Source: a virus
Strand: one strand, 5' to 3'
Length of the DNA stretch: 21,406 nt
Virus record (IMG/VR): IMGVR_UViG_3300044858_001842
Location: 1-21,406 of that record
A program made the translations under genes and the position numbers. Shown in pieces: positions 10,987 through 14,440 of the stretch. The notes under the pieces were generated by a model that ran no database searches, was not told the origin of the DNA, and saw only the letters and a program-made list of their open reading frames with translations. Numbering within the stretch: the stretch's first letter is position 1; every line of letters begins with the position of its first letter.

Positions 10987-11051
10987 GTTCCTCTCAGGAA
11001 CACTTCAAGCCCCCTCAAACCCCCTGGCTCACAAGGCTGGGGGGTTTTTTT
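10987..11051 (+). terminator. Rho-independent terminator with a preceding hairpin
   Basis: AAACCCCC (11017-11024) pairs with GGGGG plus the start of a seven-T run (11045-11051), closing a C/G-rich stem around TGGCTCACAAGGCT. A second perfect hairpin, GTTCCT-CTC-AGGAAC, lies just before it at 10987-11001. This ends the rightward early transcript after the last winged-helix gene. Confidence 0.9.
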
Positions 11052-11063
11052 ACGGAGATTGCT

Positions 11064-11132
11064 ATGTACGGTAAGAAACCCATGAAGCCCGCCAAGAAAC
11101 CCACACCAGGCAAGTACGGCCCCAAGAAATGA
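11064..11132 (+). CDS. Tiny basic peptide (22 aa)
   Basis: ATG at 11064 with GGAG six bases before it, ending in an ATGA overlap with the next gene. The product is MYGKKPMKPAKKPTPGKYGP plus two lysines: nine Lys, five Pro and no acidic residue. It sits directly after the terminator at the start of a new gene string. Such Lys/Pro-rich peptides could bind nucleic acid or serve only as a translation leader. Its reality is supported by the ribosome site and the overlap, not by homology. Confidence 0.5.
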   Translation: MYGKKPMKPAKKPTPGKYGPKK

Positions 11133-11476
11133 AAAACGGCCCCGTGATTATGATTGGGCTGCTTGGCAAGCCCAAGGGCAAGATGAAGGAAGAAGGCGGC
11201 CTGCTCGAATCCGAGATGGAAATGCCTGAAGCCCTGATGGACGAAGCCGTGAACCGTGAAAACAAAGCGGAAGCGGTAATGAAGGCCAATTACGGCCCCT
11301 CTGACAGCCGCACACAGGCTTGTGGCAACTGCGAATACTTCAACACCGAAATGCCGCGTCTGGGTAAGGGCGAAGGCTTTTGTGAGGTATGGGAATTCAA
11401 ATGCTCAAACAAGAACCTTTGCGCCGCCTGGGAGTTTTCTAAGCCCGAGGAAGAGTCCGAGGAAGAAGAGGACTAG
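11129..11476 (+). CDS. HiPIP-like iron-sulfur protein (115 aa)
   Basis: The C-terminal half reads 'QACGNCEYFNTEMPRLGKGE', then 'GFCEVWEFKCSNKNLCAAWEF'. Cysteines C65-x2-C68-x16-C85-x12-C98 followed by x2-W101 nearly equal the high-potential iron-sulfur protein pattern (A. vinosum HiPIP: C43-x2-C46-x16-C63-x13-C77, with Trp80). An extra Cys92 is present. This predicts a [4Fe-4S] cluster. The N-terminal 60 residues (KEEGGLLESEMEMPEALMDE) are acidic and helical, and the protein ends in an acidic run. Ordinary HiPIPs are exported electron carriers, but no signal peptide is seen here. A structural or regulatory Fe-S, or alternatively a zinc site, is possible. Alternative start: ATG at 11150. Confidence 0.65.
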   Translation: MKNGPVIMIGLLGKPKGKMKEEGGLLESEMEMPEALMDEAVNRENKAEAVMKANYGPSDSRTQACGNCEYFNTEMPRLGKGEGFCEVWEFKCSNKNLCAAWEFSKPEEESEEEED

Positions 11477-11665: not shown

Positions 11666-11824
11666 ATGCCTTTCAAATCCAAGCAGCAGGCCAAACTCAT
11701 GTTCGCCGCCGCAGCCTCTCCAAAGGTCGCTAAGGCCACGGGAGTACCCATGAAGGTCGCCAAGAAAATGGTCAAGGAAGGTCAATCTAGCCTGAAGAAA
11801 CTCCCCACAAAGGTCAAGAAATGA
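11666..11824 (+). CDS. Small basic phage protein, MPFKSKxQ type (52 aa)
   Basis: AGGAG seven bases before the ATG. The protein starts MPFKSKQQAKLMFAAAASPK and ends with KKLPTKVKK. It is very Lys-rich with no acidic cluster. The opening 'MPFKSKxQ..LMFA' is shared by widespread short phage proteins of unknown function encoded near head or packaging genes, some of which are thought to be virion or nucleic-acid associated. It ends in an ATGA overlap with the next gene. Confidence 0.75.
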   Translation: MPFKSKQQAKLMFAAAASPKVAKATGVPMKVAKKMVKEGQSSLKKLPTKVKK

Positions 11825-11982
11825 AAAAAGACGTCTGGGATAAAGCCCGACCAAAAGGGTTGGGTAAACCAAAGGAACTGTCTAAGAACCAGAAGGCTGC
11901 TGCCAAGCGGTTCGCCAAGTCCACGGGGACTAAGTACCCCTCTTTGGTCGCCAATATGCGCGGCGCACAGGCAAAGAAATAA
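11821..11982 (+). CDS. Small basic hypothetical protein (53 aa)
   Basis: ATG in an ATGA overlap with the previous gene and TAA overlapping the next ATG (TAATG). The product, MKKDVWDKARPKGLGKPKEL followed by SKNQKAAAKRFAKSTGTKYP and a short tail, has roughly one basic residue in three. It resembles its neighbours in composition (Lys/Ala/Gly-rich) and may have arisen with them. A nucleic-acid-binding or capsid-internal role is only a guess. No motif recognised. Confidence 0.65.
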   Translation: MKKDVWDKARPKGLGKPKELSKNQKAAAKRFAKSTGTKYPSLVANMRGAQAKK

Positions 11983-12329
11983 TGCCCCGGACAATCAGAC
12001 AAGCAGCGGAGGCTTTTGCCAAATATGATCGCAAAACTAGTAAAGACATGGCTGAGTTGCGTAGCCAGGGTTCTGGTGTTCGCAAGCCCGTCCGGTCAAC
12101 TAAGGGTGCAAGCCCAAGCGACCTCTGGGACCGAGCGAAATTCCTCTACCGCAAATCAAGCCAGATCCTCAGTCTTGGACAGCCTTTGCAAAACAAGGAC
12201 GGAACGCCTACGCCCGCAGCAATGCAGTTCAAACGATGGGCCGCCCCCATTCCAAAAACAATCGAAGATGTCCGTAAAATCAAAGCCCAAGCAACCAGGC
12301 TTAAAGAAAAATACCGCCCCAAAGAGTGA
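11982..12329 (+). CDS. Basic hypothetical protein (115 aa)
   Basis: ATG in a TAATG overlap. The N-terminal half is basic and disordered-looking (AFAKYDRKTSKDMAELRSQG, KPVRSTKGASP). The second half is helical: LWDRAKFLYRKSSQILSLGQ, then FKRWAAPIPKTIEDVRKIKA and a basic end. No enzyme motif or membrane span. It ends in a GTGA overlap with the methyltransferase gene. The fourth basic small protein in a row before the terminase block; function unknown. Confidence 0.7.
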   Translation: MPRTIRQAAEAFAKYDRKTSKDMAELRSQGSGVRKPVRSTKGASPSDLWDRAKFLYRKSSQILSLGQPLQNKDGTPTPAAMQFKRWAAPIPKTIEDVRKIKAQATRLKEKYRPKE

Positions 12330-12850
12330 TCCTAAACCTCGGAAGCGGTAAAGATTGGCGTAGGGATGCAATCAACGCCGACATCCAGCCAGAGAAGAAT
12401 CCTGACTGGATACTGGACATTACAAAGGTCCCGTGGGGCGAGCGGATATTTACACGACTCGGCGAGTTCGTAGTCAAACCTGGGATGTTCGATGAGATCA
12501 TCGCCAACGACGTCTTAGAGCATATTCCTGATCTTGTAACCGCGATGACCAACTGCAAGGAACTACTATCCCAAAAGGGAAAGATGCACATTCACGTTCC
12601 GTATGACCTATCCTACGGAGCCTGGCAAGACCCGACTCATGTAAGAGCGTTTAACGAAAACTCATTCTTATACTACACAGACTGGCATTGGTATCTGAAC
12701 TGGCAGGACCGCTTTTACTTACAAAGCATGGCATTTGAACTATCCGACATCGGAGAATCTCTTGCCAAGAAAATGGATAAGGAAGAACTACTAAGAACCC
12801 CAAGAGCCGTAGATGCCCTAAGCGTGGTTCTTACAAAGGAAAAACCATGA
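12326..12850 (+). CDS. SAM-dependent methyltransferase (class I), 174 aa
   Basis: GTG start in a GTGA overlap. Motif I is ILNLGSGKDWRRDAINADI, with the Gly-rich SAM loop at residues 5-9 and the acidic residue after strand 2 (D19). A later 'FDEIIANDVLEHIPDL' (about 55-70) is the motif IV-like 'D-V-L-E-H' of type-11 methyltransferases, and 'KGKMHIHVPYDLSYGAWQDP' with THVRAFNENSF matches the predicted-SAM-methyltransferase family that modifies small molecules or sugars. No DPPY/NPPY DNA-methylase motif is present, so it is probably not a DNA base methylase. Target unknown. It sits among basic small proteins before the packaging genes. Confidence 0.8.
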   Translation: MILNLGSGKDWRRDAINADIQPEKNPDWILDITKVPWGERIFTRLGEFVVKPGMFDEIIANDVLEHIPDLVTAMTNCKELLSQKGKMHIHVPYDLSYGAWQDPTHVRAFNENSFLYYTDWHWYLNWQDRFYLQSMAFELSDIGESLAKKMDKEELLRTPRAVDALSVVLTKEKP

Positions 12851-12927
12851 AACTTTGGAAAGACTTCTGCTGGAACGTCCGCTACTACTGGGAGCGACTC
12901 TGTAAGTGGGCGAAGGACCGTGGCTGA
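12847..12927 (+). CDS. Tiny Trp/Cys-containing peptide (26 aa)
   Basis: ATG in an ATGA overlap with the methyltransferase stop; ends in an eight-base overlap with the GTG of the next gene. The product begins MKLWKDFCWNVRYYWERLCK: four Trp, two Cys, and strongly basic and aromatic, a likely amphipathic membrane-surface helix. It may be a real peptide or a short frame that couples translation from the methyltransferase to the large gene. No ribosome site is visible. Confidence 0.4.
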   Translation: MKLWKDFCWNVRYYWERLCKWAKDRG

Positions 12928-14440
12928 CAGCATTTCCGCAATCCCCCAGCAACCTTTTCTGGGTAGGCTGGCAGAGTTCCTGCGTTTCTTAGAAAAGGAT
13001 CGCCCAGAGTTCTTGCCGCCCCAACTAGGTGTTATGCAAGGAATCAGCAAACTTGCCTTACCGCAAGCGTCCACAATCGAAAACCTGTCTTACGGCAACC
13101 AACCGTTTACTATGCCGCCTTCCGGCACAGGGGCAATGATCCCGCAGGCAAAAACCGGACGTAAGCCAGAGATTGCAGACCTTGTAAGTATGATTTCCGG
13201 TGTACCCGGCGCTGGCGCGGTAGCAGATGTTGGAACAAAGTTGTCTAACCAAGCCGCAGATGCGCTGGTAAGGGCAATCACCCGCAACCCGCAGGCAACG
13301 GCTCCAGGCGTCTTGCAAGAGGCTGGGCAAATGTCTCCGCTGGCTGTTTATAGAAAGACAACTCCAAGCAAACCAGACCCGTCTGTAGGTACCAGGTTTG
13401 AACGAGAGTTTCTAGGTGGCTTAGCAGAAAAAACGCCCGTAAAGATTGAGGACTTAAAAGGCTCCAGCCTTATGCTGATGCCTTGGGACAGCACCAACAG
13501 GAATTACAGAATTAAATCAATTTCTGAGGAAGTTCTTCCGCAGTCTTTTGTAACTCACGGCGGTCAAGACTACGCTAGAGACATTGAACACATAAGACAA
13601 AACATTGCCGGTGCATCAAACTTAGAAATTGCAAAAAGAATTCAAGACCGCGCTGTTCAGGCAAGAATTGAAAATTTAGCGGCTGGTGGTACAGGAGATG
13701 TTGTTCCGTTGCCAACAACAATGGGTGTTGGAGCAGAAAATTTTTCTGTGCAGCCAATGCTTCCAATTCTTGGTCTGTTAGACCTGCGCCAACCTTCAAA
13801 GGCTTTTGTAAAGTATTTTGACCAAGAAGTTAGAGACTTCAAAATACCAAAAACCGTAAAAGAAGATGGGGCTAAGAAGCGGGTTCTTACACAGCCGTTT
13901 AAGAACTTCAAAGGTGTCATGACAGAAGAAGGCCGCATTCAGTTGATGACCGGCGAAGGTCTGGATAGCACCCCTGGCGAACTTCGCAAGGCAATGACGC
14001 AAATTGCTACCAAGAAGTCCAAAGGGTTCGAAGGCGGTTCTAACCAAGAATACTTGAAATACAACCTCGAAGATTTGACTAATGCTATAACAGACGAAGC
14101 ATTGCTTGGTGTTCCAAAAGGTTACGCTGGCAATACAGTAATTAGAATTGGGCCAGAAGGAACTCATCTTTCTCCTGCGACCAACCCGACTTACTCTACA
14201 AACTTTTCTGGTCAGTATCTAGGAACGCTTGGACAGAGTATTCCGGCAGAGGCTTTGTTCCCAAAATTGTTTCCAAAGATTACACAAGAAATGGCTGGCA
14301 AGACTGGCGATATAAGGAATATGGTTCTCGGCGCACTAGAAAAACGCAAAGAAGGAATATCGGAAATCGTTGACCAACAGGTAATCGACAGCGTAAACGA
14401 GTACCTTAGAAAACTAAACTCAGGACTGCTCGGCCCCTAA
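12920..14440 (+). CDS. Large unknown protein, resembling modules of phage large polyvalent proteins (506 aa)
   Basis: GTG start at 12920 with GAAGG just upstream. Residues 1-115 are Pro/Gly-rich and low in charge (FLPPQLGVMQGISKLALPQA, GVPGAGAVADVGTKL). From about 150 on the protein is richer in Lys/Asn and the DNA more A/T-rich. It contains 'LMPWDSTNRNYRIKSISEEV', 'THGGQDYARDIEHIRQNIAG', 'AAGGTGDVVPLPTTMGVGAE' and 'MTGEGLDSTPGELRKAMTQI'. This order (a rule-like opening, 'THGGxDYARD', 'PxLPTTMG', a helix with D/R before a nucleotide-like end) resembles a domain I associate with large polyvalent phage proteins, which are injected or virion-packaged. There is no membrane span. Family call moderate; function unknown. 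Confidence 0.6.
   Translation: MADSISAIPQQPFLGRLAEFLRFLEKDRPEFLPPQLGVMQGISKLALPQASTIENLSYGNQPFTMPPSGTGAMIPQAKTGRKPEIADLVSMISGVPGAGAVADVGTKLSNQAADALVRAITRNPQATAPGVLQEAGQMSPLAVYRKTTPSKPDPSVGTRFEREFLGGLAEKTPVKIEDLKGSSLMLMPWDSTNRNYRIKSISEEVLPQSFVTHGGQDYARDIEHIRQNIAGASNLEIAKRIQDRAVQARIENLAAGGTGDVVPLPTTMGVGAENFSVQPMLPILGLLDLRQPSKAFVKYFDQEVRDFKIPKTVKEDGAKKRVLTQPFKNFKGVMTEEGRIQLMTGEGLDSTPGELRKAMTQIATKKSKGFEGGSNQEYLKYNLEDLTNAITDEALLGVPKGYAGNTVIRIGPEGTHLSPATNPTYSTNFSGQYLGTLGQSIPAEALFPKLFPKITQEMAGKTGDIRNMVLGALEKRKEGISEIVDQQVIDSVNEYLRKLNSGLLGP

Follow-up and report, generated by a model that had tools for sequence, protein, structure and literature searches.

Introduction

The known function of high-potential iron-sulfur proteins (HiPIPs) is that of exported electron carriers, whereas HiPIP folds that are not exported are known mainly from subunits of glycyl-radical enzymes. 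The HiPIP-fold [4Fe-4S] subunits of these enzymes act to increase solubility or to control conformation (PMC12590467; PMC12358834), and in the alkylsuccinate synthase complex, which includes MasB, the beta and gamma subunits have been described as HiPIP-like [4Fe-4S] proteins (PMC12358834). With respect to phage structural proteins, four cysteines hold an Fe-S cluster in tail tip/hub proteins of the lambda gpL type (PMC10276861).

The gene described here lies in the IMG/VR virus record IMGVR_UViG_3300044858_001842, the whole 21,406-base stretch of which was analyzed and is called the window below. An initial annotation of this DNA had proposed that the gene encodes a HiPIP-like protein, a call that is right in substance, with strong evidence coming from homologues.

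Gene product and cysteine pattern

11129-11476, + strand: gene of the predicted HiPIP-fold protein P0001 (115 aa), based on the ORF, its translation, and phage relatives
11321-11431, + strand: putative metal-site core, C65 to W101, based on invariant cysteines and the predicted HiPIP fold
Core codons, + strand: C65 at 11321, C68 at 11330, C85 at 11381, C92 at 11402, C98 at 11420, and W101 at 11429, based on the translation

P0001 is the product of a stand-alone gene, and translation of ORF 11129-11476 places C65, C68, C85, C98, and W101 exactly where they had been reported. The motif originally written for it, C-x2-C-x16-C-x12-C-x2-W, is correct for these four cysteines and the tryptophan but misses a fifth cysteine, C92; with this residue included, the full pattern reads C-x2-C-x16-C-x6-C-x5-C-x2-W, the gap from C85 to C98 being x12. 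P0001 has the cysteine pattern of HiPIPs, that is, the four cluster cysteines and an aromatic residue three positions after the last of them. Composition shuffles of the protein reached a HiPIP-range spacing together with the aromatic residue in 31 of 200,000 cases, and a six-frame scan of the window found P0001 to be the only match to the HiPIP-range pattern. A tail of 14 residues follows W101. Acidic extensions had been ascribed to both termini, and this holds for the C-terminus but not for residues 1-20, which are basic or neutral, the only acidic stretch of the N-terminal part spanning residues ~21-48.

Conservation among phage relatives

Close relatives of P0001 number 15 in IMG/VR, at 68-77% identity. 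Deposited phages add eight distant matches, and six of these, all from Manatee Springs records, bear the name "high potential iron-sulfur protein"; no match to the gene was found in the phage collection at the DNA level. Alignment-based scanning confirmed at least 407 members of the stand-alone family among the 600 candidate stretches listed, and at least 597, also among 600 listed, of a second family that was reached via Pontimonas phage phiPsal1 and in which the domain is fused to another protein, both family sizes being lower bounds. A profile scan of ~85,000 cellular species genomes gave one confirmed match, on a MAG contig that is probably phage, because it also encodes terminase and portal homologues. 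The HiPIP-like family is large and essentially phage-only, occurring on hundreds of phage contigs.

The four cysteines C65, C68, C85, and C98, poor conservation of which in homologues the initial annotation had named as counting against its call, are unchanged in all 57 aligned phage relatives, at identities down to 24%. Stand-alone members carry five cysteines (C-x2-C-x15..33-C-x6-C-x5-C), whereas the fused sister family carries four, Val or Ala occupying the place of the fifth; C92, which may lie near the metal site, is conserved in the stand-alone family only. Some stand-alone relatives (L033-L056, L064) have a sixth cysteine within the C68-C85 loop, besides the C92 equivalent. Since this loop varies from about 15 to 33 residues among relatives, the x16 match to Chromatium is a matter of luck and an exact HiPIP spacing does not serve as proof. 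The "canonical spacing" put forward as evidence is thus not upheld, given the widely varying loop, the fifth conserved cysteine, and a last gap of x12 rather than x13. Judged on the alignments, conservation of the cysteines is a stronger argument than chance-spacing statistics.

Aromatic residues are also retained around the cysteine core of the 57 aligned proteins, namely Y/F70, F71, W/F/Y88, and W/Y101. Y55, which is Tyr or Phe in 48 of the 57, sits ten residues ahead of the first cysteine, as does a tyrosine of the HiPIP 1isu, and is probably the counterpart of the conserved HiPIP tyrosine. A Tat (RR) motif is absent from all 86 stand-alone family members examined, in agreement with the earlier description of the protein as cytoplasmic-looking.

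Sequence-profile similarity to HiPIPs

As a single sequence, P0001 gave no HIPIP match in Pfam (the gathering cut-off of PF01355 is 22 bits), no PHROG match, and no PDB relative, and a family search of the window record found no HIPIP either; its Pfam match to Cas4 at E 0.062 was not useful, and its NCBIfam match was irrelevant. Alignments of the phage family were compared with an alignment of 17 HiPIPs by hhalign. The combined phage alignment matched at probability 95 and score 44.9 with the cysteine core in register, whereas shuffling all but the Cys/Trp columns gave a mean score of 14.3 and a maximum of 32.4 in 60 shuffles. Taken separately, the window-type family matched HiPIPs in the first half only, at probability 69, and the fused family matched them at probability 95; the two phage families matched each other over the whole core (probability 96, E 1.6e-9), a score reached by none of 50 shuffles.

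Scans of individual members against Pfam pointed the same way. HIPIP matched 36 of the 41 members scanned and led the matches of the sister family, in which L117 passed the cut-off at 22.5 bits. Thus, the proposed HMM comparison with PF01355 gave a split outcome, negative for P0001 itself and positive for this sister-family member. DUF7140, a Pfam family whose function is not known and on which a search for information found nothing, matched 28 of the 41 members at a strength similar to that of HIPIP, and Zn_ribbon_RRN7 gave weak matches in 6 of the 41 (best E 0.14). Against PDB sequences, 12 of the 13 matches of a profile built from the broad phage alignment (A3) were HiPIPs, with a best E of 0.022, and with a second profile (A4) HiPIPs ranked first and MasB (9o8u) fourth.

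Predicted fold and putative metal site

AlphaFold2 was run on input alignments that contained no bacterial HiPIP, and its models were of moderate confidence (pLDDT 64 for the window protein and 66 for the fused domain). In Foldseek searches—the structural check that the initial annotation had called for—HiPIPs took every one of ranks 1-14 for the window-protein model (top probability 0.99, E 0.05), and the top match of the fused-domain model was the HiPIP 3h31 (probability 0.57). Accessory subunits of glycyl-radical enzymes (2y8n, 4pkf, and 9pzj) are also among the fold matches. VIA Z values against HiPIP entries were 3.0-4.7 and 3.9-4.8 for the two models, which are modest, as expected of a small irregular fold, and alone would not convince. 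The AlphaFold result supports rather than proves the fold, because the network may know the motif from training. Sequence profiles and predicted fold together bear out the HiPIP-like assignment, and P0001 is predicted to be a divergent HiPIP-fold protein; it is classed as divergent rather than classical because it lacks both a Pfam HIPIP match and a Tat signal.

That P0001 is instead an unrelated small Cys-rich protein, in which C-x2-C...C...C-x2-W arose by convergence, is improbable. Such a reading would account for the lack of a significant match of P0001 alone to solved structures or Pfam HIPIP, and AlphaFold could have followed a motif learned from HiPIPs; however, the profile signal is lost on shuffling even when the Cys, Trp (and Phe) columns stay in place, and profiles and fold search agree independently.

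A rival of more weight, although still unlikely, accepts the same fold and the same four cysteines and places a structural Zn(II) in the site, making the protein a zinc-stabilized small structural or assembly factor. Zinc is commonly bound by four-cysteine sites that include C-x2-C, some members give the weak Zn_ribbon_RRN7 matches, and cluster proteins are rarely phage-encoded. In the Pfam, PDB-sequence, and fold searches, however, HiPIP models or structures outranked every zinc family, and aromatic residues of the HiPIP-pocket type are conserved. A [4Fe-4S] cluster is tentatively preferred to zinc because of the fold prediction and the aromatic residues around the site.

Genomic context

11064-11132, + strand: mini-ORF of 22 aa, basic and Lys/Pro-rich (MYGKKPMKPAKKPTPGKYGPKK), with a stop codon that overlaps the HiPIP-like gene's start
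11017-11047 (to 11053 with the T-run), + strand: terminator-like hairpin followed by a T-run (-21.8 kcal/mol, z -1.9)

The hairpin immediately precedes the transcription block to which the HiPIP-like gene belongs; a consensus scan does not list it, and it recurs in most of the close relatives inspected, with matching base changes in the stem. The mini-ORF arrangement likewise recurs in most of the 14 close relatives inspected, where the encoded peptide (MYGKKP...KYGPKK) differs in length but retains MYGKK at its start and KK at its end. Downstream, three short basic ORFs (11666-11824, 11821-11982, and 11982-12329) are followed by a methyltransferase gene (12326-12850), as the initial annotation had described, and the same-strand block runs on through terminase, portal, and scaffold. 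The basic protein encoded at 11666-11824 (MPFKSKQQAKLMFAAA...) looks like the beginning of larger virion structural proteins of phages (phrog_22033, phrog_25121). Searches of Pfam, PHROG, and NCBIfam gave no match for an ORF of 506 aa (12920-14440) that lies between the methyltransferase and terminase genes.

One group of relatives has terminase and portal genes directly ahead of the HiPIP-like gene, which is followed by a variable gene encoding 360-510 aa and then by scaffold and major head protein. The 360-510-aa neighbor is heterogeneous across 34 loci (e.g., L043:1033-2547, L060:5165-6250, L063:3049-4593); in some of the copies, a YHGT motif together with a C-terminal FDP is reminiscent of ADP-ribosyltransferase-like phage polyvalent proteins, with no profile match. 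An equivalence between this neighbor and the 506-aa ORF of the window was considered and is unsupported (hhalign probability 0.1). In the Manatee Springs phages, the gene is near terminase/portal or among genes annotated as P22-like tail and DNA-transfer proteins. Members of the sister family carry the domain N-terminally fused to a Peptidase_S78 prohead protease. One fused protease (L095:2107-3894) has a Hva1_TUDOR domain between the HiPIP-like and S78 domains.

Among 20 window proteins scanned, no redox enzyme was recognized, nor, with PHROGs, any glycyl-radical enzyme, the record being possibly incomplete. The first of these results bears on whether P0001 is an electron carrier, encoded by an auxiliary metabolic gene that gives the host a HiPIP. 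HiPIPs are electron carriers, and fold and ligand pattern would suit this role, which is nevertheless the least probable of those considered, in view of the missing Tat signal, the missing redox enzyme, and the fusion to prohead proteases.

A sensor of redox state, oxygen, or iron, or a late-gene regulator whose cluster state alters binding to another factor, would gain from C92, which could make the site reactive in the stand-alone members, and from the position of the gene at the front of a transcription block that follows a conserved terminator-like hairpin. Such a function is doubtful, since a DNA-binding domain was not found and since in several phage groups the gene adjoins, or is fused to, head genes, a better fit to a structural role. 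Of the roles first suggested, the context favors a structural or assembly site over redox sensing. A head-region position is not proof of a role in assembly, the window-type gene lying several genes upstream of terminase.

Proposed role and implications

From the conserved cysteines, profile similarity, predicted fold, gene position, and fusion, all of which were observed, we infer a cytoplasmic HiPIP-fold metal protein that is accessory to a partner involved in assembling heads or in packaging; the whole reading is held tentatively, its chances being a little short of even. Residues ~45-105 of P0001 would form the HiPIP-like fold, in which C65, C68, C85, and C98 would hold one metal centre, most likely a host-loaded [4Fe-4S] cluster. 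Rather than serving as an exported electron carrier, P0001 would be a small accessory domain that solubilizes, stabilizes, or conformationally controls its partner, candidates for which are the portal, an internal protein encoded alongside, or the prohead protease, as in the fused sister family. This accessory role is proposed by analogy, because HiPIP-fold subunits act in this way in glycyl-radical enzymes. On the present models and gene neighborhoods, these phage proteins form a divergent family with a predicted HiPIP fold, which is not exported and is linked to the head/packaging region.

If this is true, capsid assembly gains an iron-sulfur (or zinc) step, and phage production is tied to host iron and cluster supply. 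In a more far-reaching and speculative version, the [4Fe-4S] HiPIP module, free or protease-fused, would act as a maturation checkpoint that gates head assembly or proteolysis by host iron or redox state; its extension across a widespread class of tailed phages is equally conjectural.

Comparison with known systems

The phage proteins share with HiPIPs (PF01355; 3h31, 1isu, 1cku, 3hip) the cysteine order C-x2-C...C...C-x2-W/F/Y, the aromatic residues, and the predicted fold. The bacterial HiPIPs compared have a Tat export motif, whereas the phage family does not, and P0001 further differs in its extra C92, its acidic tail, and its gene in a phage head region. The last gap is usually x13 in HiPIPs, the x12 of P0001 being found in one of the 17 compared (Haloferax). 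The accessory subunits of glycyl-radical enzymes (BSS beta/gamma, MASS beta/gamma, and the HPAD small subunit) are likewise small, non-exported, and HiPIP-fold, with C-x2-C-xn-C-xn-C; their partner is a glycyl-radical enzyme, unlike anything recognized among the window proteins scanned. The lambda gpL site belongs to a tail hub domain rather than to the product of a head-region gene and is a functional precedent only.

Among the closest counterparts are the Manatee Springs "high potential iron-sulfur protein" entries (e.g., UOF82869.1, UOF80787.1) and gp68 of Roseobacter phage CRP-13, which belong to the same stand-alone five-cysteine family and are encoded in the same region, near packaging or structural genes; they differ in having a longer C68-C85 loop, and their names are automatic or hypothetical only. 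The CRP-13 paper mentions neither iron nor gp68, and among the open-licence papers searched for HiPIPs in phages there was none on a HiPIP-like phage family. The fold was anticipated by automatic names; the prohead-protease link and the position next to the portal were not found in the literature searched. The N-terminal domain of phrog_80 prohead proteases (e.g., AUV61415.1 of Pontimonas phage phiPsal1) has the same four-cysteine core as the window family, but is fused to Peptidase_S78 and has Val/Ala in place of C92, whereas P0001 is unfused. With phiPsal1 and CRP-13 as cultured carriers, the family is directly testable.
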